The notes under the pieces are model-generated. The model ran no database searches and was not told where the DNA came from. It saw nothing but the letters and a program-made list of their open reading frames with translations. A stretch of DNA of 64,000 nt from Engraulis encrasicolus. Taxonomy: Eukaryota; Chordata; Actinopteri; Clupeiformes; Engraulidae. A program made the position numbers and the translations under genes. This document shows, in pieces, positions 27,086-63,541 of the stretch (position 1 is the stretch's first letter; the number at the start of each line of letters is the position of its first letter). The stretch covers positions 219,001-283,000 of the forward strand of contig NW_026945753.1 in NCBI RefSeq assembly GCF_034702125.1, written 5' to 3'.

Positions 27086-27158
27086 GCAGTAAGAAGCCCC
27101 GCAAGGAACATAAGTCAGGACATGGACAAAGATGACGTTGACAAAGATAAATATATTG
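27086..27158. other. Palindrome spacer
   Basis: This 73-bp sequence is not repeated in reverse. It separates the arm ends GGCAGGCCCATCT and AGATGGGCCTGCC and is short enough for the arms to extrude or fold back. Confidence 0.85.
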
Positions 27159-30100
27159 AGATGGGCCTGCCGACAGGCGTGTTCAGTCTTTGCAGAAAAC
27201 ACTAAACTACATCAAACAACATTGCAATGAGATTTCAGAGAACCTGAAGTAACCGTGTAAGACTTGATCATTACCATATTGGTGTCTATATGGTTATAAC
27301 AGTGGGTGTGTGATAAGGGGTTACCACCAGCGTGTATGCTTGGTTTGACAGGCTGTTTGTGGTCTATGTTGGCTATCGTCTCTGTCAAATTCTCTGCTTG
27401 ATGTACATGACATACAATATCCCAATGATACCTTCCTGGACACATAAACCCCCAAATGAATAAAAATACAAATAAAAAATACAAGACTAAAATGTCTTAA
27501 AAATGCTTATTGTGTTTTCGGAACTGTTGATCTTTGTGTATTGAAGGTCATTCATTTAGGCTTTGTTGGTGGTGCCTCTTCACTGTGAGACATATGTCTT
27601 TTGGCTGATGTGGTGATTGATTGAATGCTACCGTGTAAGCCATATGAAAGAAAGCTCTGTTTGGCAATTACAATGCGTGGTTCGTGGTGGGAGTCTGCTT
27701 TGAAAAAGTTTCGAAAACATATATAGAAATAAGTGAAAATGGTTTGTGAAAATTGTGAGTGAATTATGAAGTAGGTAGCTTTGGTGCAAATGCTGAAAAT
27801 TATATGAACTCTTTCAGGATATGTTCAGCTGCTGCAATATCACATTTCTCAACTGTATTTTGTAGAACATACAATATACCCTCCTGGGCCTGGATAAACT
27901 TTTTGCGGGGAATGTGGATGCTGCAAATGTATATGAACATGCATTTCAGCCATCCCTCTGATGTCTCCAGCCCTCTTGTAATGGTTGGGACTTTATATTT
28001 CCATACAAATCCACACTAATTTCTCACTTATTGGGCTACAAGATGGCTGCTACCCATATTTCAAAGCATACATTACACGCAACACATTTTGTGGTGCTGC
28101 AACTCCATGATCACCTTTTGCAACATAACACAATTTTAGAAGTCCAGAGGTAACAGAATCTGGAAAAAAAATCTAAAAAAGAATCATATTTTTCACTGAC
28201 AGCACGGTTTCCTGTGTGTTAACCTGCTTGAAAAGATTCACATACCCCCTTTATAGTGTTATACACCATATTCATGCTATTGTCATGTGTGCACAAATGT
28301 ATTTTAAAAATGCTCAATTTATATAGTTCGCCACGTGTTCACATTGTACAATTTCACATGTTCTATCTTCATAATGAAATCTACTCGGTTGTAAATTATG
28401 CTGTAGATAATTTTAGGTTCATGGTGTTGTACCAGAGATGTAGGCCCTGTTGGATTCTGTCAGTCAAGCTTATAGGCTTTTTTGTGTAGATTATGATGAC
28501 TGAAATCAAACATTTTCTGGAGATTAAACTGTGAGTTGGAAAAAACAGAGTGCTCTCTTGGCTTCTGAAAGCTCCCTAGTAGCCTATATAGGTGCTATGC
28601 GACCAAAATTTGGATAATGTAATGATCAAAAATGTATCAACACCACTAGCCACCAATAAGGGGTTTTAAAACATGGTTGAATTTGGGATATGCACTCATG
28701 CAGATGCTTGATGATTATAGCCTTGGAGACAACTACTGTAGGTCTGAAATTGGTAAGGTGTGATAGAAAGGGTAAGTGTGGCATTGCCTTGACCAGATGG
28801 TAGATTTAGGGTGTGTGTGTTAAACCGTGATGCTCTGTTAAAAACTAGGGGTGTGCAAAGAAAAAGTCATGACAATATATTGTATTGAACCTCTTCAGAT
28901 AAATTATGGTCTCATGACCAGTGTATCGTGATACGTATTAGCTAGCAGTTTAACACTGTTGATGAGTTCAAAGGCAGCATTAATTTACGCTGCAGTGCAC
29001 TCTGGCATCCTATTGCTACCCCTGCATAAGAAAGATGCCATGCATAGCGTATTGCATGTAGCCTACTGTATCGCAATGCTTATGACCTGTGTATTGTGAT
29101 AGGACTACGCGTTGTATCGTGAGGCTGTTGACAATTCCCAACCCTATTAAAATCACTGTTGCGTGCACTGTAAAAAAAAAATAGTTGAGACTATTTAAAA
29201 AAACAGGGCAACCTTCTGCATTTAGAATTTTAGGTTTAGCCAACAATGTTTCCATGATAATCTCAATTATGAATACACCGTCATATTTATTGAGAATTCT
29301 TAATTCAATCAATTTTCATTTCCTCATTCTACCAACACAAATTCGTCTTTCTACTGAACAGTCGGCACGTTCTGGCAACGATGTTCCCATGATAATCTCA
29401 ATTATGAATACACCGTCATATTTATTGAGAATTCTTAATTCAATCAATTTTCATTTCCTCATTCTACCAACACAAATTCGTCTTTCTACTGAACAGTCGG
29501 CACGTTCTGCCAACGATGTTCCCATGATAATCTCAACTATGATAACACTGTTAAGTTTATTAAGAATTCTTAATTACACAGTAAATTGTGTAGTGTTAAA
29601 ATAACACTTAAAGAGTTAAAATTAACACTGTTCTAGTGTCTATTTGGTCCTGCTCCAGATCAGTGTTAAACACTGGTGTTAGATTTATAGTGTTAAGCTA
29701 ACACTATAAAGAGTAAAGCAGTTTCGGGGAGCACCCTACTAACATTTTTTTTAGTTCTAAGCAGGTTCCTGGAACATATGTGTTTTGGTCCTGCCCCACT
29801 ATCTCTCACCATAGTTGAGGTACCCTGATCATGGTAATTAAGCACCTCCCATCCTCCACCATGACTGAAACACCCTGCGCCTGGCATCAGTTTGCCACAC
29901 TGCTCTCTTAAGATAATGATTAAAGTTGCTGAAAACATGTAAAATGTCTATATTTTATATATCAGTCTATGCTGTACTGCACCACAATGAGAGAGCAATT
30001 TCAGCTGAGCATGTATGAACACAATCTAGTTGGGATTAATACCAAATGTTTTCGTTAATGAAGTTTAAAATATAACCATACCATCTACTTCAAGTGCACA

Positions 30101-33100
30101 ATGGAGCAAGCAATGTAACATGTGCTGTTACTGACTAGCTCACAAAGCAAGGCACAAGCTGTAGCTAACAAATGCCATAAGCCAAAAGCGCCTTTAGCTT
30201 GCTTGCAAAGCAGGTAAACAAGCGCTATGCTGTGCCATGCTGACCAGCCAGCAGGCAGGCAGGCAGGCAAATATTTAAAGCACTGTGACAGTCCAGGTTT
30301 ATATACAGGCTCAAGAGTACCATGTGACCAGATTGATTAGGAGTTTTTCAGGTGCAAGAAATTGAGTCATGATATACCAGCCCTAAGTAATTAGGTTTGG
30401 CCAGGCGCTGATGGACAGATTGGTTGTGAGGGGCCTGCTTGTTACCGGCAAAGGTGTAACAAGTTCTCAAGTTATTTCTTCCACTCAACACATCTTTTGT
30501 GTGATGTTGTGTGCACAGCCAAACCTTAGATCAACCCAACCAAGTTGAGTTAAATGAATGAAATGGAATAATAAAAAAAAGATTGTGTACATGATTAAAT
30601 CTGGAGGAAATACTGTTACTAATATGTAGACGTATATGATTTAATCGGGTACTAGGGCATACAATGGCGCAGACAAACTCCATCACCTCGAGGAGGCGGG
30701 GGCTCTCTGGAGTACTTCTAACTCCACACAATTTAACAACTTCATTTGTCACTGACACTGGAGAGCATCTCACTCCATTTGGTGTTGGAATTACTCCAAT
30801 AGTGTCAATAAGCCTTAACACTGCAAAATTAACACTGGCAAATTTACTGTGTAGCATACACAGCCTCACAGACGCACGCTACTATTCAGCCCACTAACAG
30901 CTGAACAGTAACAAAAAAACACAGACTATGATAGCAGAAACTTTGAGTCCTTAATGTTACCATTACCAGTAAATGACATGGCTACTCCAGGTGGATTGGC
31001 AGTGTGGCATTGGACTAATGCGGTCAGCTTCACAGTAAATTTGCCAGTGTTAATTTCATTAAGGTAAACATTTTGTATTAGTCCCCACTAGATTGTGTTC
31101 ATACATGCTCAGCTGAAATTTCTCTCACATTGTGGTGCAGTACAGCATAGACTGATATGTAAAATATAGACATTTTACATGTTTTCAGCAACTGCAAACA
31201 TTATCTTAAGAGAGCCATGTGGCACACTGATGCCAGGCGCAGGGTGTTTCAGTCATGGTGGAGGATGGGAGGTGCTTAATTACTCTTTAGTAGGAAACCC
31301 TGTGTCGTGGCCAAGAAGCGCATGCGCTGAATAAACAGTTGTGGCAATTAAGTATTTTCAATTTGCAATATTCACTATTTTATGTTCACATATCACTGAG
31401 ATGCAACCTATCGGTTTGATGTGGATTTTTCTGTTGGTTAATAATAATTCATATTTCCTGTCCATTCAATTGTGAACATATAATTACTTGAACAATGCGT
31501 AATTCTATTTTTTACGGTGTGTGTTTGACCTTTGATTTATTTTGATTCAAGTCTTTATGTAGGATCATGTCATAATGAAACATTTTGTAAAAGTCAGGGA
31601 AATATAGGCCTACAGAAATACTCTCAATGACTCCCTACAGCATTTATGACGTCTGCTGCTGCTTACAACTCATATTCTATACAGTCAACACTACGTGGCC
31701 AACATACAGCATTTTAAGACTTAAGGGTGCCCTGTGTAATATTTTTGGTAGTTCGTTTCCAGAATCCATGCTGCCCATTCACAAACGTTACCTTTTTAAA
31801 AGGAATACCTACTACCACCATCAAATTCTAAGTATTCAACATGACTGACAAAATTGCACTTTTCATACATTTTGAATTTCCAGAAAGAGATATTTTCAGC
31901 TGAAAAACGTACTGTGCTTTGGTCATACTAGTAAATAGTGGTTTATTATTCAGAAAATATTCATTAAATGATCAAAGTTGGCAATAGGCATCACAGTTTT
32001 AATGAGCTGCATAGTTGCAAAACCTATACTCTGGACACTCAACGCCACCATCTTACACGCCACAGCTTTAATACCCCTGCATAACACGAACACGTAGTGC
32101 AAGAATAACATATAATTCATATTATTCATTTCAATTTTTATTTGAGAACTTGTACTGTATACCAATACTGAGGCTTCAAAACAGCCTTGTAATTTTACAC
32201 TCATATAACAATGTGGCACAAAGGGTGAATAGATGAACTGTGGATTACACTGATTGTGTATGGTAGGCTATTATTTGACTATACCTTGCAAATCAGGCTG
32301 TTCTGTGGCATTAGCTTGGGCAGCCTCGATGACCAAATCTTAGAGTAGCCTTTCCCCATGATTTCAGCTTTTGCTGTGATTATGATACTATGTAGAAATT
32401 AGTGTTTTAGGCTACCTTCAATGTGTACCCTTGTGACAGTTAAAGTAATTTAGCAAAATGTGTATCAGTTAAGGTTGAGGTGAATTAGTAATTATCATTT
32501 AGCGTTTTCGTGGGTATATTCAAGTGCTTTACATTTTGTTATTAAATGAACTCGAAATATCTGAACAAAATCAGAATATGGTCAGTGACAGATTGTTTAC
32601 CACACCGTGGCAAGAGATGTTTAGTGAATGATAAACTCAGTTAGGCCTATGTAAAAAGATTTCTCTTGAGTTATACATGACAATCTTTGACCCAAGTTGG
32701 CTTATTTGTTTGACTTGTAAAGTGCATTGTTTTAATCTATTGTATTAATTATTTGACTCTTAAATATGTATCTTTAATGGAACTGAAAAAACAAACAATA
32801 AAACACAGCTGAAGCTATTTTTTTTAAATGCAATACTGATCTAACAGTGTTTTTATTTGCTGTTACTGTGGGTCTTTTGATATCACCATGGACAATTTGA
32901 CATTAAGTAATATGCTTTGAGGAGTTTGTTGCAGGCATAAATGGTTTTCCTTGCAGAGTTTCAGTGTGACAAAATGTGTCAGAATAGTAGAATAGCCTAT
33001 GTTTGTGTGCGGAATTTTAACAGTAGGCCTATGCGTCATGTTTCACACAAAACGTTTAAGCAATGGGAAAAGTGTTATAAAACAAGCTGTTGTAACTTTG

Positions 33101-33619
33101 ATGTGTATTCAAAGTGAGCCATGACAAAAATCAATAGGGTACACAGTGCATGTACAAGCACAGCTGCAAATGTCATAAAGACTGAGATATAAAATATGAA
33201 ACAATGCAAGTGTCTGTGAGCTGCTGAAACACAATTTTTATGTTTACTTTTAATAGCCTAATGTAACTTTAACAAAATTACTATATTTCATTTCATCTCT
33301 GCTGAAAATGAAATACCATACACTCTTTTTTTTCACCACTACAAAACACAAGTTCAGCTTTGAATGATCATGTAGATATTTGGGGATTCATCTTCTCGCA
33401 AATGGGGTGTTTCCTACTCAGAAAAATTCTGCAATGAGATGACAACTACAATGACACTCACCAATCTAGGTGTGAGGTTTCCCACACCTACTATTTTCAG
33501 TCCCAAGAGATCAGGTTGGTAAGATAGACTAGAGAGAGATAAGGTATGATTCAATATCAGGAAAACTCTAAAGGATCTCCAGAGATGGGTACATTGTGGC
33601 TAGGCATCAATAATCACTA
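27159..33619. repeat. Inner right arm of the palindrome, split by element B
   Basis: It mirrors 22959-27085. The arm sequence GTTGCGTG at 29158-29165 continues at 31520 after B. The left arm (around 25058-25074) provides the unoccupied version of the site. Confidence 0.85.
29166..31519 (+). mobile_element. Element B, copy of the 2354-bp element inserted in the right arm
   Basis: It starts CACTGTAAAAAAAAAATAG and ends TTTTTTACGGTG. TG lies at both flanks (29164-29165, 31520-31521), matching a 2-bp target duplication. Its length equals that of A. It lies in direct orientation to C. The clean insertion relative to the other arm shows that this family was mobile after the palindrome formed. Confidence 0.85.
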
Positions 33620-35674
33620 CACTGTAAAAAAAAAATAGTTGAGACTATTTAAAAAAACAGGGCAACCTTCTGCATTTAGAATTTTAGGTTTAGCCAACAA
33701 TGTTTCCATGATAATCTCAATTATGAATACACCGTCATATTTATTGAGAATTCTTAATTCAATCAATTTTCATTTCCTCATTCTACCAACACAAATTCGT
33801 CTTTCTACTGAACAGTCGGCACGTTCTGGCAACGATGTTCCCATGATAATCTCAATTATGAATACACCGTCATATTTATTGAGAATTCTTAATTCAATCA
33901 ATTTTCATTTCCTCATTCTACCAACACAAATTCGTCTTTCTACTGAACAGTCGGCACGTTCTGCCAACGATGTTCCCATGATAATCTCAACTATGATAAC
34001 ACTGTTAAGTTTATTAAGAATTCTTAATTACACAGTAAATTGTGTAGTGTTAAAATAACACTTAAAGAGTTAAAATTAACACTGTTCTAGTGTCTATTTG
34101 GTCCTGCTCCAGATCAGTGTTAAACACTGGTGTTAGATTTATAGTGTTAAGCTAACACTATAAAGAGTAAAGCAGTTTCGGGGAGCACCCTACTAACATT
34201 TTTTTTAGTTCTAAGCAGGTTCCTGGAACATATCGTCGGCTTGCTACCAAAACCGCCTAAGTCCGATTTTGGGGTTTTCGGAAAACAGGGAAAAACTAGG
34301 CACCAAAGGGGGCGCCAAACATCAGTGGCGGTTCTAGGAAATCTTAGCCCCTGGGCAAAGAGCAATTGTGAGTCCCCCCTAATAATTTTGGTCAAAGGAG
34401 ATTTTTGCAGAACTCCCCTTTTTTACTCCTCTACCACATCTACATCATCCTGTCATCATGTCTGTGTCATTGGTCCACTACAAACAGTACCAAGATGTTA
34501 ATATATTTTCTTTATTTATTTTGAGTGAAGCTGCAAGTCAAACATGAAATGGCTCCTAAGGAAAACAAAACACTTTAAAATAAATTATTTGAAGCAGCAA
34601 AACAAGAACAATGCACTGCACATTATTTTGATAGTTACACTATTCTTTTTTATTTTTATTCCAAACTTTAATCCTGGATATGGTGAAAGATTGAAATATT
34701 TTTGTAGACCTTGTAACAATCTAGCATGCTATGTATTAAGTTCATTATGTCTAACTGTTTAACTTAAACACTTAAGGGTTTCTTTTGCCTTAAGACATGT
34801 AAATCTAGCATGCTGGTAAATCTCATGTCTACCAACAGATTTTCACAGATTTCTTTTACTTTCTAGCACTTTCAGTCATATTAGCTTTCAATGAAACATT
34901 ATTTGCATTCGCATCCAAAGTATAACTCTTTTTGTCCTTGTGCCAGAGCAATTGCCACAATGGTAACACTTAGTTTTCAATGATAACATCGTTTAGACTC
35001 TCTACCAAAGCATAGCACCAGAGCAATGACTGTGATGGTAATGTTCATTGCTCATATCAGAGCAGATCCCGACTGTAGTGCCTCACAGAGTAAGCCATGC
35101 AGTGACGGCCAATCTCCATGTTGAGGTCCCATCAGTCATGGAGGAGGATGACGGGGTGGGGCACTTCTTTGGTCCTTGTACCTCCTCACGAACTGTCTCC
35201 TCCTTGTTTATCATCTTTGCTTAACTTCTGCTCTTCTCCATGCTCATAGAACTGCCCCACCCTCCCAACCTTGCCCATGACCGAGGTAACCTGGTCATAG
35301 AACTGTGCCCCGCCCACTTCAACGCCATGACCGTGGCATTCAGAATATGAAATAGAACCACTACTGGACACTTTACACATTGGATTTGGTCTTCCAACTG
35401 CGTATTCAATAGTGCATTGCACTAGGAACATCAACCCAATGTTGTTTATAATGTACATTATGAAAAATTACATAAGGATACGATAAAACAGATTGTCATA
35501 AGATGATGCAGTCTATAAATTTGTGATAGCATCAAGTAAAGTAAATGATTAATAATTGCAGAGTTTGTTTCAAGGCTACAACTATTAATTAATGTAGGGC
35601 TACAACCATTGTGTGATAAGATTATCTCAGACAGATGTCTAAGGATGAAGTTTTAAAACATGGCCATTGTCTTT

Positions 35675-35734
<60 letters not shown>

Positions 35735-37893
35735 AAAAGAAAACCTCTCAACAGATGTAAATAAACGGCTTCTTGCATCACAAATGGCTAAGTCAAGTTA
35801 CCTAAGTCATTCACATTGGCAGAACAATTGTGCACAGGGCCCCAGGATGAATAGATAGGGCCCCCATACCACCTGCCAAGGTCATAATAGGGCCCCTACC
35901 CCTGCCACCTGCAGGAGGGCCCTAGGCCTACAGGCAAATGCCCTCCTTGTCCTCCCTATAGCTACGTCCCTGGTCATGCATTTTCTCATAGGCAGTGTGT
36001 GACTTTATGCATACAGATTTTTTACTCTGGTGACTTTTGTGATTGATCTATGACCCTGGCGGAAAGGCAGGGTGATGCAGCTGTGGTAGGGGAGTACGCT
36101 TATGCAAAAATCTCATTTCGACCAAATTCGGACTTAGGCGGTTTTGGTAGCAAGCCGACGATGTGTAGTATACTATCTCTCACCATAGTTGAGGTACCCT
36201 GATCATGGTAATTAAGCACCTCCCATCCTCCACCATGACTGAAACACCCTGCGCCTGGCATCAGTTTGCCACACTGCTCTCTTAAGATAATGTTTAAAGT
36301 TGCTGAAAACATGTAAAATGTCTATATTTTATATATCAGTCTATGCTGTACTGCACCACAATGAGAGAGCAATTTCAGCTGAGCATGTATGAACACAATC
36401 TAGTTGGGATTAATACCAAATGTTTTCGTTAATGAAGTTTAAAATATAACCATACCATCTACTTCAAGTGCACAATGGAGCAAGCAATGTAACATGTGCT
36501 GTTACTGACTAGCTCACAAAGCAAGGCACAAGCTGTAGCTAACAAATGCCATAAGCCAAAAGCGCCTTTAGCTTGCTTGCAAAGCAGGTAAACAAGCGCT
36601 ATGCTGTGCCATGCTGACCAGCCAGCAGGCAGGCAGGCAGGCAAATATTTAAAGCACTGTGACAGTCCAGGTTTATATACAGGCTCAAGAGTACCATGTG
36701 ACCAGATTGATTAGGAGTTTTTCAGGTGCAAGAAATTGAGTCATGATATACCAGCCCTAAGTAATTAGGTTTGGCCAGGCGCTGATGGACAGATTGGTTG
36801 TGAGGGGCCTGCTTGTTACCGGCAAAGGTGTAACAAGTTCTCAAGTTATTTCTTCCACTCAACACATCTTTTGTGTGATGTTGTGTGCACAGCCAAACCT
36901 TAGATCAACCCAACCAAGTTGAGTTAAATGAATGAAATGGAATAATAAAAAAAAGATTGTGTACATGATTAAATCTGGAGGAAATACTGTTACTAATATG
37001 TAGACGTATATGATTTAATCGGGTACTAGGGCATACAATGGCGCAGACAAACTCCATCACCTCGAGGAGGCGGGGGCTCTCTGGAGTACTTCTAACTCCA
37101 CACAATTTAACAACTTCATTTGTCACTGACACTGGAGAGCATCTCACTCCATTTGGTGTTGGAATTACTCCAATAGTGTCAATAAGCCTTAACACTGCAA
37201 AATTAACACTGGCAAATTTACTGTGTAGCATACACAGCCTCACAGACGCACGCTACTATTCAGCCTACTAACAGCTGAACAGTAACAAAAAAACACAGAC
37301 TATGATAACAGAAACTTTGAGTCCTTAATGTTACCATTACCAGTAAATGACATGGCTACTCCAGGTGGATTGGCAGTGTGGCATTGGACTAATGCGGTCA
37401 GCTTCACAGTAAATTTGCCAGTGTTAATTTCATTAAGGTAAACATTTTGTATTAGTCCCCACTAGATTGTGTTCATACATGCTCAGCTGAAATTTCTCTC
37501 ACATTGTGGTGCAGTACAGCATAGACTGATATGTAAAATATAGACATTTTACATGTTTTCAGCAACTGCAAACATTATCTTAAGAGAGCCATGTGGCACA
37601 CTGATGCCAGGCGCAGGGTGTTTCAGTCATGGTGGAGGATGGGAGGTGCTTAATTACTCTTTAGTAGGAAACCCTGTGTCGTGGCCAAGAAGCGCATGCG
37701 CTGAATAAACAGTTGTGGCAATTAAGTATTTTCAATTTGCAATATTCACTATTTTATGTTCACATATCACTGAGATGCAACCTATCGGTTTGATGTGGAT
37801 TTTTCTGTTGGTTAATAATAATTCATATTTCCTGTCCATTCAATTGTGAACATATAATTACTTGAACAATGCGTAATTCTATTTTTTACGGTG
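33620..37893 (+). mobile_element. Element C, outer right end of the palindrome, split by D2
   Basis: The ends are as in B. TA flanks both sides (33618-33619, 37894-37895), a proper 2-bp duplication. It is about 2.35 kb after subtracting D2. It mirrors A. Confidence 0.85.
34234..36160 (+). mobile_element. Element D copy 2
   Basis: Same CGTCGGCTTGC ends as D1 and D3. It splits element C where B has uninterrupted GGAACATATGTG. Flanks are ATAT at the left and ATGT at the right. A short stretch of C next to the right flank is missing relative to B. It includes an (AG)n tract and the intact site for the hAT found in D1. Confidence 0.88.
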
Positions 37894-38614: not shown

Positions 38615-38821
38615 GTATTGTGGAATATTTAAAATACTCATGTCGTATGTTTACCTTGTGAACAGATCATATGAGTGAATTGTGTGGCTCATTGATGTGC
38701 GCACTGACACACATTTCCTGTGCAGTAGCTCAGAGCTGCAGACTCTGGTTTCCTGTCAGCTGTGGTTAGGTCACCCAGTTATCTTCTGTAGATTGTCTGT
38801 AGATGGCCTTATAAGTACTTA

Positions 38822-40124
38822 CAGTATATCACAAAAGTGAATACACCCCTCACAGTTTTGCAGATTTTTGAGTATATCTTTTCATAGGAAAGCATTACAG
38901 AAATGTCACTTTGACACAATGATTAGTGACCTTTTAACAACATATTTAACCGCTTAAATTTCTTGTTCACTCAGAAAAAAACAAAATACAGCCATTAATG
39001 TTTGAACATGTACTCACAAAAGTGAGTACACCCCAGATTAAAATCCGGTAGAGAAGGGGCTGTGTTGGCTCGAATCGTCTCGAAATGAAACAAAATGAAA
39101 AGGGATGAAAGGGGAGGTCATCAGTGTGCGTTTCAACCTTTCTTTGCATTGAACTTTTACATTTTGAGTCTGCATCTGGCTTAAAGAGATTGGTGTGAGA
39201 TTTGAATGCAATCCTATGGAGAATATCATGATCTGCTTCAGTAGTCACAGTGCATGATGACATGCGTGTTTCTTTTAGGTGTAGTTCAGATTACCAATGT
39301 TGACAGCATTCATGCATCCATAAACCATGTCAGTCCCACTACCATGCTTGGCTATTGAGAGGGTACACCTTTTTTGTAAAACTCACTTGTTTACCACCAC
39401 ACATGCTTGACACCATCTAAAGCAAATTTGTTTATCCTGGTCTCAAGAGAGATGAACAGACCAAGCATATGGATCACTGGAACCATGTCGTGTGATCTGA
39501 AGAGACCAAGGTAAACAAATATACTTTAGATGGTGTCAAGCATGTGTGGTGGTAAACAAGTGAGTTTTACAAAAAAGGTGTACCCTCTCAATAGCCAAGC
39601 ATGGTAGTGGGACTGACATGGTTTATGGATGCATGAATGCTGTCAACATTGGTAATCTGAACTACACCTAAAAGAAACATGCATGTCATCATGCACTGTG
39701 ACTACTGAAGCAAATCATGATCTGCTTCATAGGATTGCATTCAAATCTCACACCAATCTCTTTAAGCCAGATGCAGACTCAAAATGTAAAAGTTCAATGC
39801 AAAGAAAGGTTGAAACGCACACTGATGACCTCCCCTTTCATCCCTTTTCATTTCGTTTCATTTCGAGACGATTCGAGCCAACACAGCCCCCTCTCTACCG
39901 GATTTTAATCTGGGGTGTACTCACTTTTGTGAGTACATGTTCAAACATTAATGGCTGTATTTTGTTTTTTTCTGAGTGAACAAGAAATTTAAGTGGTTAA
40001 ATATGTTGTTAAAAGGTCACTAATCATTGTGTCAAAGTAAAATTTCTGTAATGCTTTCCTATGAAAAGATATACTCAAAAATCTGCAAAACTGTGAGTGG
40101 TGTATTCACTTTCGTGATATACTG
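38822..40124 (+). mobile_element. Tc1-like foldback element with transposase relic
   Basis: The ends are CAGTATATCACAAAAGTGA and its near complement, flanked by TA (38820-38821, 40125-40126). The unit 2 copy near 46455 has the empty site. The arms 38822-39447 and about 39506-40124 are inverted repeats of over 600 bp. The plus-strand centre reads, in broken frames, DHWNHVV then SEETK, and then KHGSGTDMVYGCMNA. These match the Tc1 transposase WSDETK and KHGGGSVMVWGC regions. Stops make it inactive. Confidence 0.85.
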
Positions 40125-40148
40125 TATTTATAAGCCACCATAGATAGT

Positions 40149-54527: not shown

Positions 54528-54558
54528 GGAGGCAAAATGGCTGCTTTTTGCTCAACAT
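54528..54558 (+). CDS. Ig-CARD gene: first coding exon
   Basis: A strong pyrimidine tract and tttag precede GGAGGCAAA, then ATG at 54537 in a good Kozak context (A at -3, G at +4). It encodes MAAFCST plus one base and has a GTATGA donor. Phase 1 matches the next exon. The acceptor implies an upstream 5' UTR exon; 54231-54286, ending at a GTAAGC, is a possible one. The seven residues do not form a signal peptide, which is unexpected before a V-set domain. Confidence 0.5.
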
Positions 54559-54708
54559 GTATGACATTTTCTATTATCTGAAATGTTTAGTTTGACAGAT
54601 GTTTTCTTAAAATTGAGTTTCATTCTGTTTGTTTTTCATTACTACTATTGATTTGTATGACCTCAATGAAAGCCAAACTCTATCAGTCGATTTGACCTTT
54701 GTCAACAG

Positions 54709-55035
54709 GTTTCAAACTGGTTCCCAATGACCAATGCCCAAGGTTGTCAATTGGTGGGGATTCCACCCTGCCTTGTTCCCTGTCTCCCAAAATCAGTGCT
54801 GCTGCCATGCAGATCAGGTGGTTCAAGGGCACAGACTGTATCTACCTGTATAGTAATGGCTATGCGACAGAGAGGCAGGGCTATAAAAATAAAGTGAGTC
54901 TCGACACCCAAAGTCTAAGTAATGGAGATGTATCTTTGACATTGAAGGGGATCCGTAAAACAGACCAGGGCCTATACACATGCCAAGTCATCCAAGGGCA
55001 AGAAAAAGCATTGACAAGATTACGGTTATATCACA
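54709..55035 (+). CDS. Ig-CARD gene: Ig V-set domain exon
   Basis: This encodes one complete V-set immunoglobulin fold in 109 codons. The first cysteine is in STLPCSLSP, the core tryptophan in QIRWFKG, and the second cysteine in the DQGLYTCQV motif (DxGxYxC). NGDVSLTLKGIRKTD precedes it. The style resembles butyrophilin/B7-like V domains of fish. Acceptor gtcaacag, donor GTAAG, phase 1 to 1. V-set domains of this group bind ligands or other receptors at the cell surface; here the rest of the protein argues for an unusual setting. Confidence 0.9.
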
Positions 55036-55166
55036 GTAAGATTTTTTAAATTTAACTTTCACAATTACTATTATTATTATTATTATTTTTTTTATTATTC
55101 ACATTTATTTCACCCATGCTTATTTTATTTGTTATTTCTCTTATATTTATTTTGGATTTTGTAAAG

Positions 55167-55190
55167 GTGGCAAGATGATCATCAGTTGTT
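55167..55190 (+). CDS. Ig-CARD gene: 24-bp micro-exon
   Basis: GT GGC AAG ATG ATC ATC AGT TGT T lies between gtaaag and GTAAGT. It adds SGKMIISC in frame. Very small in-phase exons after the Ig exon are also known from butyrophilin-like genes. The short hydrophobic IIS is not long enough for a membrane span. Confidence 0.6.
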
Positions 55191-55283
55191 GTAAGTATCA
55201 CTTTATAAAGTATTAAGTATCACTATTAAGTATTTTTTCCTCACCAACAAGGTGACCAGTATGTTTATTTCTTGCATCTGTAG

Positions 55284-55343
55284 ATGTGAGGGATGCAACT
55301 ATTGAAGAGAAGGCAAAAATGGATCACTCTGTTCGAAATATTG
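55284..55343 (+). CDS. Ig-CARD gene: 60-bp linker exon
   Basis: Acceptor catctgtag, donor GTGAGG, phase 1 at both ends. It reads YVRDATIEEKAKMDHSVRNI, a charged hydrophilic linker. Confidence 0.65.
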
Positions 55344-55409
55344 GTGAGGCATATGTTTTAGCATATATTTCACAAGTGTTATCCATGGATTGGTTATAAT
55401 ACCTCTTCA

Positions 55410-55690
55410 TAAATCAGTCATGGGAAAGCGGTTGTCAGTTCGACTCCCGAACCACCAATTTGGTGGGGGAGTATTATATTAAGTTCTCTCTCCCATCCTC
55501 CTGCTTGGTACCATCCTGTCGCACTGCTCCCTTGTGGTGCCATTTGGGGGTTGCCCTTTGCATGATTGAGGCATAAATGCAGTTTGGTTGTGTGCAGTGA
55601 GGACTGTGTGCTGTGGAGTGCTGTGTCACAACGACAGTGGGAGTTTCCCAGGTGGACTTTCGCTTTCACCTTAGAAGTTACATAATCATT
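55410..55690 (+). mobile_element. SINE-like repeat in the Ig-CARD intron
   Basis: GTCAGTTCGACTCCCGAACC resembles a Pol III B box followed by a palindromic AACCACCAATTTGGTGGGGG. A tail with CGCACTGCTCCCTTGTGG continues downstream. It ends just before the next exon and may have weakened that exon's pyrimidine tract. Confidence 0.5.
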
Positions 55691-55736
55691 ACAGGGTGTT
55701 GTAGGAGGACAGCAGCAACATTTCCAATGCACAGAG

Positions 55737-55952
55737 AGGCAGAAGAAAAACGGGAATCAAAACAGCATCCGAAAACATTACCACAACCACAAAAGCTCAG
55801 GATGCAGATGCCACTAACTCACAACCTGAACAAGAAAGTGAGACCTAAGAAGAACATGAAACACAGGAACCTCCAATCACAGGAATTGCTGTCTCAGCTG
55901 GAAGACACAAAACATAGAATCATACAGCTAGATGACGTGTCAAAGACCACAG
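55737..55952 (+). CDS. Ig-CARD gene: basic linker and start of coiled coil
   Basis: 72 codons, phase 1 to 1, donor GTGAAT. The acceptor is chosen at cacagag|AG because it alone keeps the phase: alternatives either break the phase or meet an early TAA or TGA. It starts EAEEKRESKQ, is rich in lysine, glutamine and proline (LPQPQKLRMQM), and ends with a heptad-like stretch SQELLSQLEDTKHRIIQLDD. A bipartite-like basic run KKVRPKKNMKHR lies in the middle. The acceptor lacks a pyrimidine tract, so it is less certain. Confidence 0.6.
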
Positions 55953-58179
55953 GTGAATTTTACCTTTCACTACATATCTTATAAAGGTTATACAGCAACA
56001 CACAGCACTAGACTGTCCTCTTGAAAATAGATTCTCATTGGGGCTTGGACTTATAGTAGGCCAGGTACCAGTCATGCACAGGGATTACATGGGCACTACC
56101 TAAGCAATAAGCCAAGGGAGGCTGTGGGTTTGTGTTCGATTTATAATGGGCAAAGGAAGTTGTAGCACGACGCGAAGCGGAGTGCTGTAAAACTTCCCTT
56201 AGCCGTTATAAGAACCTTAGGAGAGCAGACTTGAGCACACTACTTTACATTGGTGACATGTTTTGATTTATCTTGGTGTACCATATTTACTTTCTTTGGT
56301 TGAGAGCTAACAACAGCAACAAGCACATTAATGAACGCAGGAACATAACATGCTCAGACAGTTCACATGAGTGCTCAGTTTAGTGTCTTCCTGAAAGTCC
56401 ACCTTGTCGTTAAAATGTATGCAATGTAATTTCACAATGTTAAAAGCCTGTGTTGGGTGGCTACCTTTTGCAAGCGCTCAGCAGAATAATCATTGAGTTG
56501 CATTGTGCTCATTGAATCAGTTATTTTAAAATGAAGCAATATTTAGGTAAACATTTATTCCAAAGATTCCTGGTACACCTCTACTGTATTTCTGATCCAG
56601 TCTCGCTCCCGCTTAGATTGGGATCCTCCTGGCATGAAAAGAGACAGCTTACCAGGCTGGCGCTCAACAACATCTTCAGGTTTTACACATTTTTATACAA
56701 TTAAACCTTTTCCATATTTTCCAGTAGCCTTTTGGATTCACCCTGCTCCCAAACCAAAATGCAGTAGAACCAATCAGCAGTGCAGGATTTTCAGAGATGT
56801 GAAATAGTCCAAATTTAAACATAGTAAAGTATGAAAAAATAAGTGAAACTTTAGAGTTGTTTCAGCAACAATGGTCGCTCAGATCGACTGACTCATTTAC
56901 ATTGATTCTGTCATTTTAACTGTATTTTCCCAATGGGAAAAGTAATTGTTTCCCCAATCACATGCAATGACAATTTTATGTCAGGGACCACGATCAGGGC
57001 CACCGGTGCCTATAGGCAGAATACGCACTATATTGAATTACAATATAGTATATTTAATAACTATGAACAGGCTCATCATTTTACCTTGAAAAATGTGTAT
57101 CCTATTACTCAATTCGCGCACTCACTGTTTTGCCTAATGCAAACACCCACTCTCTGTAGGCCTAATGGTACAGCTCAATTTGCGTCTTCCCTTCTGGTTC
57201 GCTGCTAACTGTGATGGAATAGCCAGTGCAGCGCTTTACAGCTTTGACACAAGACGACAGAAGTAGTCACATTTCAACAATGAAGCCACAGCACAAGTCT
57301 TACTTTACCCAATTGTCTGTTATCTGAAACAAATGAGATGAATGTTGGCGCATACTTCAAAAGAAATGTAATTCCAAAGTGATTTGAAGTTAGGGGTAGG
57401 GACTTGCTAGCAAACCATCTGACGAACAGTAACAAAGAGTTAATGGTCATCTGAACTGCTCAAAACGGATAAACACTGGACTTGAAATTAGTTAAATGTT
57501 TGAAAATTCAACATATTACGGTGTTTAGCCTAATTTGCTGTTGGACATCCTTCATTTCCGTCAATATAAAAGGTCCCAACTTCAAGGCAAAAGGGTAGCC
57601 TACTCTTCCTAACTTTAGCCAAAGTTAAATTAGACACAAAACAAAATGAAATACAATGCCCAAATAAAACTGTCTATCAAACACCTTGACAGGAATCCTG
57701 TGTGCCTTGGAAAATGTGCTCTGAAAAGAGTTAAAGAAACCTTTGCGCACATATAGCACAATTGACTCGAATTGGTCAATGATGGTTCTTCATTGCACAA
57801 TTCACTGCACTGCATTCATGTCTGCATACTCCATAACCTACTTCAGACAGTTTGTGTGTCTTGCCCAGCCGAATATACTGTAGAAAGTTTTTTGATTAGG
57901 CTGTTTATCCATTTACTATTAGCAGTCTTCAGGGAGGAAACGCGATGGCGGATTTAACAGACAGAACTCGATCAAGTGACAAAGAGAGAGAGGGGCATGG
58001 AAGAGATTTCTCCACGCTCAAGTGCACCGGCTTGACCGCCGTTATAGTTCTCATAAACACTACTTTCACAGCTTCTGACCTCCGACGTGTCAATGTGATT
58101 CCGGCCAACTCAACAAATTACACCACACAGCGAGTTGTTGACCATAGCCTATTTTTCGTCTGCGTAGCTTGCATGTGTA

Positions 58180-59387
58180 CAGTGCCATGAGAAAGTTTGG
58201 GCACACTTTTGGAAAATCAGTACATCGGTTTATTTCTTGTTATACCTTCTTTGGGGTGCCCATATTTATGCACACACATATTTGTGTTTAAATCCACAGA
58301 CAATTCTTTCTATAACACCTATGAAAATTCTTCCACTGCTGAAATGTTTCTCTTTCCCTACAGTTTAACTTATGTTTAAAGGAAGTTGCTACTTTAAAAG
58401 CTCAATGAGAAATAAACCGATGTAACGATTTTCCAAAAGGGTGCCCAAACTTTCTTAAAATTCTGCGGCAAGAATCCTAACAAGAACCAGAATGAGAGAG
58501 CACATCTCTCCTGTCTTGGCAGACCTGCACTGGTTACCTGTCTCATACAGAATCGACTTTAAGATTCTGCTCACAGTATTTAAAGCATTAAATGGACTTG
58601 CCCCTAGCTATATCTCAGACATGCTCTCTTTTTATGCCCCTGCTCGAGCTCTCAGGTCCACTGATGCCAAGCTGCTAAGGACCCCCACCCCCCCGCAGAA
58701 GAAGATCGGCGACGCCGCGTTTGCCTGCTATGCGCCCAAGAGATGGAACACCCTCCCCATCGAGATCCGATCAGCCACCTCCGTCGACTCCTTTAAGAAG
58801 CAGCTGAAGACCCACCTCTTCATCCTTGCCAACTCCTAGCTGCCAAGACGTCATAGTGTCCCAGCCGCCGCAGCGCCCTTACTACTCGCACTCCAGCCCT
58901 GGCAGGGGGCTCCCCTAGGTGGCCGCTGGTCTCTGCCTGAGGTTTCTTCCTGACTACAGGGGGTCTTTTTTCTCAGACCTCACTGAGCTTTTTTTCCCCC
59001 TCACAAACTATGAATCAAGCGAAAGGGAGTTTTTCCTCACCCCTGATGCCACCAGGGGCCGCACCTGAGCGCCCAATCTCTGTGTGACTATCTATGACTT
59101 ATGATAGGCCCAGCCACTATGGACCTTACACATCTAAGAATCCTGGTCCTAACCTACGTTGACCTTATGACTCTACATTCTCTGTCTATCTCTTCTTCCT
59201 CTGCCTTCCTGCTTTTTCTGCCTCTCCTCTATACCTCTCCTTTTAAATCTATCTCTCCTCTCCTTTTAAATCTATCTCTAACAATGTTTTTTCCCATTTG
59301 TTAAGCACTTTGAGTTACATGCCTTGTATGACACAGTGCTATACAAATACAATTATTATTATTATTATTATTATTCTCATGGCACTG
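58180..59387. mobile_element. Tc1/mariner-like foldback MITE, split by an L2 LINE
   Basis: The ends CAGTGCCATGAGAAAGTTTG and ...AAACTTTCT / CATGGCACTG are inverted, with TA at 58178-58179 and 59388-59389. The internal arms (TACATCGGTTTATTTC and GAAATAAACCGATGTA) fold back. It is split just before its last ten bases by the LINE. Confidence 0.85.
58462..59376 (+). mobile_element. 5'-truncated L2-type LINE: reverse transcriptase C-terminus and 3' UTR
   Basis: The open part (58492-58839) reads REHISPVLADLHWLPVSYRI, DFKILLTVFKALNGLAPSYI and, later, APKRWNTLPIEIRSA. These match the conserved C-terminal segment of L2-clade reverse transcriptases (HWLPV...R(I/V)xFK, LAPxYL, WNxLP). The 3' UTR ends with AAGCACTTTGAG, ATACAAATACAATT and (ATT)n, typical of L2. 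It is dead and 5' truncated. Confidence 0.88.
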
Positions 59388-59727
59388 TATAGCATAGCTT
59401 AACTTGGGGAGGACAGGTAGAGTAAAGGTCACTCATCCCATCTATTGCAGAGGTACGATTAAAGACCTCTTTTTCTATTTAACAGAATAATTAGAACATA
59501 TTCCAGCACCAAGTAACCCAAACATAGTAGATCTAAATGTGCTGTGCATTTCTTAGGCTGCAGCATACAATAATAATAATAATAATTATTATTATTATTA
59601 CATTATCAGGGGTGGCTCCTTAACCCGTAACAGTGGGAACAGTACTGCTTAACAGTATGAAACAGATGATTGATTAAAGTGCATATTAACAGTTTATGAT
59701 GAATTAAAACATCACTATTTTATACAG
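59388..59727 (+). other. Intron end before the coiled-coil exon
   Basis: It contains an (AAT)n/(ATT)n palindromic tract at about 59568-59600. No exon. It ends tttatacag. Confidence 0.5.
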
Positions 59728-60093
59728 CCTTTGATGGATGGGGCAAGACAACGGACAACCTTTGGGACACAAAACAACAACTATGCGTACTGCAGAGAAA
59801 CGATCAACAGGACAAGACAAAACATGTAGAACAGAAAGAAGCAGTCAACCAGAAAATAAAGTCAGAACGTAATAATATGGGTAAAAGAGAAGGAGACAGA
59901 CAGACAGAACTTGGGAGGATAGGTAAAACAGAGCGGGAGAGGGAGGGACTGCGGAAGGAACAGGAGGACAGGAACAGCCAACTACAGGAGCTGAGAATAC
60001 TACAACTAATGGACAAGGAGGAAGAGGAGGAGGAAAGAGAGAGAGAGATGGAGGACAGAGAAAGACAGTTGGTGAGGAGAGGACATGAAGATG
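59728..60093 (+). CDS. Ig-CARD gene: coiled-coil exon 1
   Basis: 122 codons, phase 1 to 1, acceptor tatacag, donor GTGAGTA. It opens SFDGWGKTTDNLWDTKQQLC and then becomes a long charged helix: KHVEQKEAVNQKIKSERNN, REREGLRKEQEDRNSQLQEL, MDKEEEEEEREREMEDRERQ. The absence of proline or glycine breaks in the second half indicates a coiled coil, probably for oligomerisation. Confidence 0.8.
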
Positions 60094-60162
60094 GTGAGTA
60101 TGAAACAAAACATTCATTTGTTCATTCATTCATGCATACTATTTATTGTTATCAGGATAGAA

Positions 60163-60164
60163 TT

Positions 60165-60258
<94 letters not shown>

Positions 60259-60286
60259 ATTCGGTAGCTTCAGCAAAACACTGCAT

Positions 60287-60342
<56 letters not shown>
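60163..60342 (+). repeat. (TC)n and (TG)n microsatellites in the intron
   Basis: TC at about 60163-60256 and TG at about 60290-60342, close to the acceptor at 60388. The tracts are pyrimidine- and GT-rich and could influence splicing of this 295-bp intron. Confidence 0.93.
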
Positions 60343-60344
<2 letters not shown>

Positions 60345-60388
60345 AAGGTGAGGCTTATGAAATATTCTTGGAAATACTTTCTGCTCAG

Positions 60389-60841
60389 ATCAAACGGAGG
60401 CACAACCAGATATGCTGGAACAACCAGAACTACTGGGACAGAAACTACTGCAAACAAACGAAGAGGTACAACAGCAACTAGAAGAGATGAAGAGAGAGGT
60501 GCAGAAGTTCAGTATAACAAAGGAGATTATTGAAAGTCAATTGAAATCACTGCAAAAAGATTTGAATGTGAAGAACAACCAACAGCAAGACAAGATGACC
60601 CAACTGCTGGACAAAGAGAGGGAGCTGAAAGGGAGAAGCAGACAGGTGGAGGAGAGAGAGAAAGAGGTGGAGGAGAGAGACAGACAGATGGAGGAGAGAG
60701 ACAAAGAGGAGGAGGAGAGAGAAAGACAGATGGAGGAGAGAGACAGACAGATGAAGGAGAAAGAAAGACACGTGGAGGAGAGAGAACGACAGATGATCTG
60801 GAAGCAGAATAAAATAATTCCACCTCTTCTATTAAATCAAG
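60389..60841 (+). CDS. Ig-CARD gene: coiled-coil exon 2 with heptad repeats
   Basis: 151 codons, phase 1 to 1, acceptor ctgctcag, donor GTAATA. The first part is a classical coiled coil (LLGQKLLQTNEEVQQQLEEM, IIESQLKSLQKDLNVKNNQQ). From 60640 it becomes seven tandem 7-residue units of the form (R/K)x(V/M/E)EER(E/D), encoded by 21-bp repeats, ending RQMIWKQNKIIPPLLLNQ. Butyrophilin genes also encode heptads in 21-bp units, though as separate exons. Likely role: a rigid multimerisation stalk before the CARD. Confidence 0.83.
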
Positions 60842-61023
60842 GTAATATAATATATCAATGTTGTCATATCCTGTTATGCATATAGGCAAGGCACTCTGGA
60901 AATAATGCAGAAAATAATTCAGAATGTCCCTAATCCATTGTGCCCTTGCTTTTGAACATGTGTAACACATCATGCTATGATGTCACTGCAAATATGATGC
61001 TTCTTACTTTATCTGCTAAACAG

Positions 61024-61277
61024 GTGATCACTTCCTAGATCGGCACCGCTCTAGTCTGATAGAGCGCGTCACCACAGTGGACCGTGTGCTGGAGCGTCTG
61101 CTAGACCTGCATGTGCTCAGTCCAGAGGCCGTTGAGGAGCTGAAGACTCAGGACACTAATGTGAAGAAGGTGACCGGCCTGCTAGACCTGGGCAACATCA
61201 GGTGCAGCAAGAGGGGCAAAGACCTGCTGTATAAGATCCTGGAGGAGACGGAACCATTTATGATGGAGGATCTAAAG
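61024..61277 (+). CDS. Ig-CARD gene: CARD exon, up to the hAT insertion
   Basis: Acceptor gctaaacag, phase 1. The exon encodes a caspase recruitment domain: DHFLDRHRSSLIERVTTVDR, VLERLLDLHVLSPEAVEELK, TQDTNVKKVTGLLDLGNIRC, SKRGKDLLYKILEETEPFMM. It matches the ASC/NLRP1/caspase-1 type (F-x-D-x-HR-x-x-LI at helix 1, the L-x-x-LL at helix 2, P at the loop before helix 3, the DLL-x-x-L at helix 5). These CARDs bind others of their kind to recruit pro-caspase-1. The frame continues into the hAT and meets TAA at 61374-61376. Confidence 0.87.
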
Positions 61278-63413
61278 CAGGGGCGGAGTGGCCCACCTTT
61301 TCCCACCGGGAGAATTTTCCCCTTGGCGGCCCTCTTTAAAAAAAAACAAAAAAACAAAGCGAACATGGTTTCCTAACCAAAAAGACAAAAGCCATGAAAT
61401 CTGCAGTCGTACTACATGTGGACATTAGTGTTGTCAAAATATCAACCTGAAGTGAAGAATTAGCCTACACCTTGATGAAATGCACAGCCAGTGGTGTAGT
61501 CTACGTAAAACGCAGGTATACGCACCCATTTCAAAATTTCAGGGATTACAGTATACCCACTTAAAATGGATTGATCCATTATTTACAATAGCACAAATAT
61601 ATACAGTAGACTATACACACATAAAAAAATGCTCAAATATACCCACTTCAAAAAGTAGACTACACCACTGGAGCCATCATCACAGTCATAGGCCTAGGTT
61701 AGGCTACATCACGCTACTGTTCCATGCAAATGTGCACTCCACTGTCATTTTGACAGTTTGAAATTGAAATATCGTTTAAGGAAGACAGGATGAGCATGGG
61801 CACAAAGTTTTGGGTGTGGGGATTTTTAGAAGAGTAGGCTTACAAAATATAGTATAGTAGCCTATAGCTTACAAAAAGTCTGTCTACATTGTGCAATAAA
61901 CCCACCATGCAGCAAATAAGCCAAACTTAGCTACTTCAAACCACAACCACAAGTCAACAAAATGTATAACCAAACGGTGTAGGCCTACCTTAAAACGCTG
62001 TCTTCTCGCAGCAAATGTCTTTGTTTCTTGCAATCACTCTACTTTAATCCACAGCTTATTAGCCTACACACCCAGCACTGGTCACATCAGAATCTTGTGT
62101 GGTAATTATTTTGTTCCATTTCTTCAGACATAGGCTACATCCTAAATGTACCACATATAAATATATGTATGATAATAATATTATTTCGACTCTAAGGAGA
62201 TATACTGGTAGGTCTAACAAAACAAAACCCATTGCTTCTGTTAGGTGCAGTTATCTTGCTTCTGTTAGGTGCAGTTATCTTCCTTACCACTTGGTGGAGT
62301 CTGTTCGTAACCCAAGTCAATAACCACAGAGCAAGTGAATCAGGACTGGAAAGACTGTAAACTGTAACAGTCGTGTGGAAATCGGAAAATAAATCATAAT
62401 TTATTCATATTTCCATCCTTTGGTAACCAATATACATATCACAGGTTCTTCAAATACTGAAAACGAAACTGTGTTACTAAGATCTTGTAAACTTCCGCGA
62501 TCTACGGTGTATGAAAATTATCAGTAGAGAAGGGGTGTGGCCAATTTACTGTTTGACACCGTCAGTGAGGTATTGCCGTCTGGTATACGGTATAAATACT
62601 GGCTAGTCAGTCAAGTACTTAAACAGGGAAGTAGAAAGCGAGATGTTAGTGCTTATTGGTACCATCTTTAGGCCGGGGATCCATTATGGCGTTACGTTAC
62701 CGCAGCTCGACGTACTGGATGTCCCAGTGTCGACGCACTGCTACTACAGCTCGCGTGGCCCGGGAGTTATATACAGGAAGTATATCATTCTACATTTCTA
62801 GCCGTTTTTATCCATATAGCAAACCAACTGCCCCTAAATTACAGTTCAAAATGCTCTTACCGAACTCGGCACATGTGTTTTTTCACACACAGCTTGGCCT
62901 CGTGTTGTTGTGCTTATGGTCGAAATCGAACATAATCATTTGAACCCAGGCATCATAAGCACATGCAACATACATGCTTGTAGTCTATATTTTGTACATC
63001 CAAAAGTTCGACAGATGTCAAAAATCTACTTTTACCGAGGGAAATGCACCTTCGTGATGACCACAGGTATCATGGGACATCTTCATGTAATCAACAGTCA
63101 TTGGGTAACGCAGTCCGTCAGCCGCTGCTAATTTGCATAACTTTCAGGAGAGCTCAACTTTTTGACGTGCCACCGGAGCCACGCTCGCCGTGCCGGAATC
63201 CCAACATGCATTGCGAGTCCGGTAACGACGATATGCCGCATTTCATTGAAAATGAATTGAATGCGTTGGTACGGCTTGAGTAAAACTGACTAGTGGATGG
63301 GCACCGTTAGACTACAGGGCCGGTTAGGGACGCAGTGCGGCCGCTTTATTACATTTCACGGCCGCGGCCCACCGGGACAAGTCCCCGATCTCCCGACGGC
63401 CACTCCGCGCCTG
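61278..63413. mobile_element. hAT element inserted in the last coding exon
   Basis: It begins CAGGGGCGGAGTGGCC and ends GGCCACTCCGCGCCTG. The 8-bp target duplication is ATCTAAAG (61270-61277) and ATCTGAAG (63414-63421), one mismatch. It is 2136 bp, with no recognisable hAT transposase, so non-autonomous. It contains several internal open frames (for example 62656-62943) without known domains. It adds 33 foreign codons to the truncated protein. Confidence 0.9.
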
Positions 63414-63421
63414 ATCTGAAG

Positions 63422-63541
63422 GAGCAGGACAGATCTGCTCTAGCAACCCTTCATGATGAAGAAGGAGCTGAACAAGTCATTGTTGGATTGATGGGTGTGT
63501 TTCTGCTTATATATGCAGTCTACATCAGTGGGCTGTCGTAA
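63422..63541 (+). CDS. Ig-CARD gene: end of last exon, coding for the membrane segment
   Basis: With the hAT and one copy of the duplication removed, the frame runs from EDLK straight into EQDRSALATLHDEEGAEQ and then VIVGLMGVFLLIYAVYISGL-S and stop TAA. The hydrophobic stretch VIVGLMGVFLLIYAVYI is about 17 residues long and sits at the very C-terminus, as in tail-anchored proteins. The continuous frame across the insertion supports it as the original end. Confidence 0.8.
   Translation, partial: EQDRSALATLHDEEGAEQVIVGLMGVFLLIYAVYISGLS

Follow-up and report, generated by a model that had tools for sequence, protein, structure and literature searches.

Ig V-set, coiled-coil and CARD exons joined in a gene of Engraulis encrasicolus: a probable family of leaderless cytosolic proteins

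The window analysed here is the whole 64,000-nucleotide stretch of Engraulis encrasicolus DNA at positions 219,001 to 283,000 of contig NW_026945753.1 (C1281:219001-283000 in the genome searched). Its last 10 kb contain a gene, called the window gene below, in which an immunoglobulin (Ig) V-set domain is followed by a coiled coil and a CARD. The gene was rebuilt from the window DNA as eight candidate exons with GT-AG borders, with all introns in phase 1 (Table 1). When 20,000 random segments of equal length were drawn from the window, the fraction with an open frame was 0.0023 for exon 2, 0.0007 for exon 6, 0.0 for exon 7 and 0.0094 for exon 8. Splice sites were scored with a simple matrix and ranked against all GT or AG sites. 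The donors of exons 2–7 fall within the top 4% of GT sites, and the acceptors of exon 5 (top 13.4% of AG sites) and exon 7 (top 13%) are weak.

A first-pass annotation of this DNA had proposed eight GT-AG exons, all in phase 1. The borders and phases are borne out by the rebuilt chain, but the membership of exon 5 is doubtful. This exon has no counterpart in the 37 loci examined apart from the window itself, and in siblings A and B, two related loci on the same contig, the stretch from the exon-4 counterpart to the coil exon contains no exon like it; it is probably either outside the normal transcript or peculiar to the window copy. The coding length of 1,842 nt given earlier, which came without a list of borders, could not be reproduced: border arithmetic without the inserted element described below and one copy of its target gives 1,884 nt.

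Table 1. Exons of the window gene, associated elements and sibling loci (positions are those of the window unless a contig is named)
Feature	Position	Strand	Description
Exon 1	54528..54558	+	Splice acceptor, 9-nt leader, ATG at 54537 (coding 54537-54558, MAAFCST), phase 1 out
Exon 2	54709..55035	+	Ig V-set domain, butyrophilin/MOG/B7-H3 type; Pfam PF07686
Exon 3	55167..55190	+	24-nt micro-exon, phase 1-1
Exon 4	55284..55343	+	Short, charged (YVRDATIEEKAKMDHSVRNIG)
Exon 5 of earlier model	55695..55952	+	Open frame; doubtful
Exon 6	59728..60093	+	Charged helical region, W-G-K-T-T-D at start
Exon 7	60389..60841	+	Coiled coil of heptads; 21-bp repeats in the DNA
Exon 8 up to inserted element	61024..61277	+	CARD; Pfam PF00619
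hAT-like DNA transposon in last coding exon	61278..63413		2,136 bp; inverted ends, flanking 8-mers
Former C-terminal tail and stop	63414..63541	+	Hydrophobic segment VIVGLMGVFLLIYAVYI at 63476-63526
Transposon-like remnant open frame in large intron, outside gene	58459..58836	+	No Pfam match
Sibling A	C1281:428714/437190 (V-set/CARD)		157 kb downstream of window gene, same contig
Sibling B	C1281:296547/311406 (V-set/CARD)		31 kb downstream of window gene, same contig
Sibling C	C1281:507779/515305 (V-set/CARD)		
Sibling D	contig C13		
Sibling E	contig C1663		
Sibling F	contig C1346		

Both of the domains named in the first-pass annotation were recovered by profile search. Exon 2 matches the V-set profile (E 2.2e-15, 57.2 bits against a cut-off of 26) and exon 8 the CARD profile (E 9.3e-11, 42.0 bits against a cut-off of 23.9), and both matches stay above the Pfam cut-offs in the joined 620-aa product; NCBIfam gave no match for either domain. 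The relatives of exon 2 in the PDB are CD276, BTN1A1 and MOG. The residues that we take to be the V-set core (Cys...Trp...D-x-G-x-Y-x-C) read LPC / IRWF / DQGLYTC in the window gene, and the core is also present in siblings A and F, with N replacing D in B. An AlphaFold model of the V-set built from the single sequence had a pLDDT of 37.5 and was not used.

For the CARD, a phmmer search of the PDB returned ASC and NLRP1 as the best matches, the TAL-effector rows having no stretch that passes alone. The predicted model has six helices (pLDDT 66.6), and a Foldseek search with it placed an NLRP1-CARD filament, the zebrafish ASC CARD and the human NLRP1 CARD at ranks 1–3 and the zebrafish GBP-NLRP1-like CARD at rank 11. 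In a comparison over 20 aligned positions, four of the five that we assume, together with their ASC numbering, to form the interface keep the residue or its charge (R119 as R, R125 as R, E130 as D and D134 as E). On sequence and a fold of moderate confidence, the CARD is of the ASC/NLRP1 type. When a protein collection presumed poor in fish proteins was searched with the CARD region, it yielded 463 candidates, none at E <= 0.001. Among viral contigs, 28 stretches fit a pattern and none was a relative, and an Rfam search of the window gave nothing at the gathering threshold.

Between these two domains, exon 4 bridges the V-set and the coil in the window gene and in its siblings. A counterpart of the TEERERMEDSV type is present in A–F; for the comparisons of the exon 4 peptide with the counterparts of A, B, F and a V-set locus at C13:845 kb, none of 5,000 shuffles was as good in any case, and for that of C, 8 of 5,000 were. 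At the place of exon 3, siblings A and B have a 15-nt phase 1-1 micro-exon, which is alike in position and phase only. The heptad coiled coil of the first-pass annotation is retained for exon 7, where none of 2,000 shuffles had hydrophobic periodicity as strong, but not for exons 5 and 6, where 737 and 295 of 2,000 shuffles did. A single-alpha-helix reading of exon 7 was rejected and the coiled coil kept because the salt-bridge excess was not significant (153 of 2,000 shuffles). Pfam returned nothing over cut-off for exons 5–7, a PDB search with exon 7 found no match, and the start of exon 6 has no likeness to the coil exon of the C13:845 kb locus (1,061 of 5,000 shuffles as good). Immediately upstream of the window, on the opposite strand, locus L026 (C1281:209001-219000, minus strand) carries coiled-coil frames that share 41% and 57% identity with portions of exon 6; it is possibly another member of the family.

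To place the window gene among its relatives, matches were sought in the whole genome (1,433,290,184 bases, 1,880 contigs), in which match counts are lower bounds for large families. There are at least 41 matches to the CARD and at least 85 to the V-set, and 25 of the V-set matches, the window's own included, have E < 1e-17. Pairing used 82 of the 85 V-set rows; the other three are the 5' halves of the V-sets that are split in C, D and E. Seven of the 41 CARD matches, the window copy included, are preceded on the same strand by a V-set at a distance of less than 25 kb; over the same distance, one has a V-set downstream on the same strand and none has one on the opposite strand. The seven paired loci, namely the window gene and siblings A–F, hold ranks 1–6 and 12 among the 41 CARD matches, and contig C1281 carries four of them. 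The aligned pieces of C and D are 82–98.5% identical and the CARDs of C and E are identical, as expected of recent duplication; C, D and E being recent duplicates, the seven loci amount to about five independent lineages.

The DNA conserved between siblings A and B falls in blocks that coincide with exons, and each sibling can be assembled into a model (393 aa for A, 421 aa for B) of eight exons, all in phase 1 and free of internal stops, with the order V-set, coil, CARD. Both domains exceed the Pfam cut-offs in both models (V-set 44.2 bits in A and 47.6 bits in B). In A a basic cluster, PQRKRKRVK, precedes the CARD, and B has a shorter basic stretch.

These loci bear on whether the window gene is one gene at all. 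If a V-set receptor and an adjacent coil–CARD gene had been read as one, the phase agreement at the single join, intron 5, would have a one-in-three probability by chance, and the poly-A-like hexamers in that intron and the weak likeness of the start of exon 6 to the sibling coil exons would fit as well. However, seven V-set→CARD pairs on one strand against none on opposite strands within 25 kb are hard to reconcile with such an arrangement, as are the unbroken models that join both parts in A and in B and the lack, in intron 5, of an ATG exon having a phase-1 donor above 6 bits; we regard the two-gene explanation as very improbable. The V-set, coiled-coil and CARD exons are real and very probably parts of one gene, and the earlier proposal that an Ig-like domain is wired to a CARD in a single gene is upheld by the sibling loci.

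Some of the related loci have features of their own. In sibling C (L010, C1281:507195-507990) an interruption of ~414 bp divides the V-set exon; it has GT-AG ends and TGTATAGG/TGTACAGG on its flanks. D (C13) and E (C1663) have the V-set divided in the same way. The interruption in C, which contains what we take to be SINE-like sequence, is a candidate for an intron gained by transposon insertion. At the second V-set half of D and E the matched frame has a single TAA, which is read as lying inside the interruption. The reading of C, D and E as pseudogenes on account of the split was rejected, as the GT-AG-ended interruption sits where the frame continues. Another V-set locus, L037 (C13:846501-856500, from 6881), taken with L032, carries an exon 4 of similar type together with an open coil of 471 aa; no CARD and no C-terminal domain was found there in the 10 kb read, which is partly N. 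On contig C16, 14 of the 41 CARD matches are clustered at 54.6-55.4 Mb, a stretch with no V-set match.

Selection was estimated as dN/dS by the Nei-Gojobori method. The CARD ratios lie at 0.15–0.49 in 20 of 21 pairs, the remaining pair being identical, and the V-set ratios at 0.43–1.03 (6 pairs); for the A–B pair the point estimates are 0.31 for the CARD and 0.75 for the V-set. The window CARD compared with its siblings gives 0.27–0.38, ratios that are rough because dS between the window and the siblings is 0.75–1.63. An alternative role is that of a decoy or negative regulator, which would compete in the manner of CARD-only proteins by binding Asc or caspase CARDs without activation. CARD-only regulators of this kind exist in ICEBERG and ARC, whose structures are among the Foldseek matches, and the window CARD is complete while no enzymatic or NACHT module was recognised. 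A plain decoy would, however, need neither the coiled coil nor the apparently faster-evolving V-set, and we consider such a role unlikely.

The last coding exon of the window gene is interrupted by a transposon whose ends have 15 of 18 terminal bases inverted and which is flanked by the 8-mers ATCTAAAG/ATCTGAAG with one mismatch; on the basis of these ends, we assume that it belongs to the hAT class. A 649-bp piece of the element occurs at 94% identity at C1281:433542-434189, between the V-set and the CARD of sibling A. In the present DNA, the CARD frame runs on into the element for 32 residues before a stop at 61374-61376. Because the CARD is complete and the frame is open until that stop, the window copy may still give a working product without its own tail.

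Beyond the element, the former tail includes a 17-residue hydrophobic segment with a mean hydropathy of 2.64. In the whole-genome search the sole match of the tail was itself. Part of it is similar, in another frame, to the end of a CARD exon; in the comparison with the exon end of A, a score as high came up in 3 of 500 base shuffles. The CARD exons of C and E end in ...KELKEQEH, that of D in ...EELKEQEH and that of F in ...ALEEKESSDDSQ; the tail of A is long and acidic, and that of B is charged without an acidic tail. No membrane segment was found in the tails of the six siblings A–F. The C-terminal membrane segment described in the first-pass annotation is therefore only partly upheld: it is there in the sequence, but it lies behind the inserted element, the frame stops earlier, and none of the six siblings has one, so that it appears to be a feature of one copy at most.

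The element also raises the question of whether the window copy is a pseudogene of an otherwise real family, giving no functional protein. The insertion in a coding exon and the weak donor of exon 1 are in keeping with this, and the one mismatch between the flanking 8-mers suggests that the insertion is not brand new. Against decay, the other exons are open and the CARD retains the low ratio against its siblings given above; moreover, C, D and E have CARD exons that extend four residues past the point matching the element site in the window, so the tail may be dispensable. We take the pseudogene explanation to be a serious possibility for the window copy, though short of an even chance.

Whether the V-set faces the cytosol depends on how the protein starts. 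The first coding exon is short in the siblings as well (MATRQKPE in A, MLPAQPQQ in B, MATAHTLQ in C, D and E), and a comparable short first coding exon is present at six of the seven V-set–CARD loci; the first exons of A and B align as DNA, and the others were matched by layout. An acceptor followed by 9 nt and the ATG is the arrangement common to the window gene, A, C, D and E, with 14 nt in B, and the ATG of C, D and E sits in a CACC-ATG-G context. Among seven lone V-set loci with no nearby CARD (L029-L035), four have a short ATG exon (MARELPDK, MATADTDIFDTDTSNSGSEDDQ, MASVG and MAAELPHK). Neither the window gene nor siblings A and B showed a signal peptide, and no membrane helix was found after the Ig domain, the maximum 19-residue hydropathy being 0.57 in the window gene as it stands, 1.25 in A (within the V-set) and 0.65 in B. 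Seven hydrophobic candidates for a signal exon in the 10.7 kb upstream of the window V-set, all of them more than 5 kb off and without sibling support, were rejected because the first exon of the siblings is short and either charged or neutral. Since no signal peptide was found and the first coding exon is short in the window gene and its siblings, the sequence indicates that the protein is leaderless and its V-set most likely cytosolic.

A cell-surface reading of the receptor suggested in the first-pass annotation is accordingly not supported, since neither a signal peptide nor an internal membrane segment was found in the window gene, A or B, and the C-terminal segment is copy-specific and cut off by the element. 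A type I receptor would require an extracellular V-set, an undetected upstream signal exon and the C-terminal hydrophobic segment as its anchor. The butyrophilin-like V-set and the 17-residue hydrophobic stretch in the tail would suit it, and the 9 nt before the ATG at five of six loci leave an upstream coding exon formally possible. Yet the 14-nt spacing in B breaks a shared upstream frame and thus argues against a common upstream coding exon, A and B have no membrane segment and the tails of A–F have none, and the tail of the window copy has no other match in the genome. A C-terminal anchor alone would, in addition, put the CARD outside the cell too. We give this topology little credence.

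What can be read from the DNA directly is which domains are present and in what order, the chain of phase-1 exons with its recurrence in the siblings, and the constraint. On balance, we find it probable that these features belong to a small family of leaderless cytosolic V-set–coil–CARD sensors or adaptors that nucleate an Asc/caspase-1-type complex. Several observations weigh against this interpretation. The donor of exon 1 scores 4.9 bits (top 7.4% of GT sites) in the window gene as compared to 11.2 bits in A–E. At locus F no first exon was found within 1.47 kb upstream, three lone V-set loci (L030, L031 and L034) show no short first exon in ~1.5 kb, and L029 has, besides its short exon, a candidate phase-1 exon that is hydrophobic and has a 5.5-bit donor. 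As many as 34 of the 41 CARD matches have no V-set within 25 kb upstream, and only seven of the 82 V-set rows serve as a pair partner. Similarity of the window gene to A and B at the DNA level is confined to the V-set exon, the CARD exon and repeats, and the start of exon 6 resembles their coil exons (W-R-K-A-T-D) weakly, 97 and 161 of 5,000 shuffles being as good. For the CARD, none of the 139 Foldseek matches had E <= 0.001, the model having a pLDDT of only 66.6, the presumed ASC interface position R160 is T in the window, and the dN/dS ratios of the window copy are rough.

If the family does consist of cytosolic sensors or adaptors, its ligand, oligomerisation and partners may be proposed by analogy. 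The V-set would bind a cytosolic ligand, which could be a pathogen product, a host protein or another V-set, and the coil would keep the protein dimeric or oligomeric. Clustering would then gather the CARDs, and the gathered CARDs could seed CARD filaments via Asc and/or caspase-1-like caspases, as with the C-terminal CARD of zebrafish Gbp4. More tentatively, the loci may represent diversified cytosolic Ig receptors, that is, leaderless V-set–coil proteins of which those at no fewer than seven loci end in an ASC/NLRP1-type CARD and would be coupled directly to inflammasome assembly; the search for a leaderless start covered a part of the 25 V-set matches, and we lean somewhat against this wider proposal. 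Vertebrate immunity has the Ig V-set as its standard fold for recognition outside the cell and the CARD as a standard intracellular trigger. Were the proposal true, a faster-evolving antibody-like V-set joined to a CARD would take the place filled elsewhere by NLRs or GBPs, and the family, if leaderless, would be a test case for new inflammasome sensors arising by phase-1 exon shuffling.

The window has other features apart from the gene. The remnant open frame in the large intron (Table 1) is presumably that of a LINE, and adjoining it in intron 5 is a short element (58190-58455) with 48-bp inverted ends (94%). Near-perfect inverted duplications at 20605-34233 and 36172-37893, up to 2,354 nt at 100% and nested around 25-28 kb, either form a segmental duplication that is palindromic or result from misassembly. 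A fold-back element at 38820-40126 consists of two 625-nt arms, 97% inverted, with 57 nt between them.

Among known systems, the butyrophilins resemble the window family in having a V-set of the same type and a coiled coil; they differ in that neither a signal peptide nor a B30.2/SPRY domain was found here, nor a membrane helix separating Ig and coil, and a CARD is present instead. Some butyrophilins lack B30.2. It is because the signal peptide and the membrane helix were looked for and not found that the window family is not classed as butyrophilin. MALT1 likewise combines death-fold and Ig-like domains in the cytosol, but its death-fold domain is a death domain, not a CARD, and it is a paracaspase. 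In the scaffolds CARD9, CARD10, CARD11 and CARD14 an N-terminal CARD precedes the coil, whereas the CARD of the window family is C-terminal. MAVS-like tail-anchored CARD proteins have a C-terminal membrane anchor; here an anchor-like segment occurs only beyond the element in the window copy and is absent from the CARD-exon ends of the six siblings. The CARDs of ASC and NLRP1 are the closest solved CARDs to that of the window by sequence and by fold, but the PYD, NACHT, LRR or FIIND parts of those proteins were not found, Pfam giving no match to GTPase, NACHT/LRR, FIIND or PYD in the 620-aa window product, A or B.

An Ig domain on a cytosolic immune receptor has a parallel in lophotrochozoan RIG-I-like receptors (RLRs), onto which Ig domains have been grafted, such as oyster CgiRLR6 with four of them (PMC8998645). 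These receptors differ from the window family in being helicase-based, in belonging to another phylum and in lacking the V-set–coil–CARD order. No description of that order was found in the open-licence literature, most subscription papers lying outside the search, so that its absence is unproven; the available parts of PMC8455134 and PMC6321704 do not describe it. Sensors with a C-terminal CARD are already known in fish (PMC6721725, PMC9978379, PMC12436146). The closest comparison is with zebrafish Gbp4, whose C-terminal CARD is required for entry into the Asc speck and which itself depends on Asc (PMC4932187). Gbp4 and the GBP-NLRP1-like proteins share with the window family the fish setting, a sensor placed first and an ASC/NLRP1-type CARD placed last. 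They differ in having GTPase and helical (or FIIND) parts where the window family has a V-set and a coil. The window family thus appears, by its sequence, to be a variant of the C-terminal-CARD proteins in which the domain order is new.

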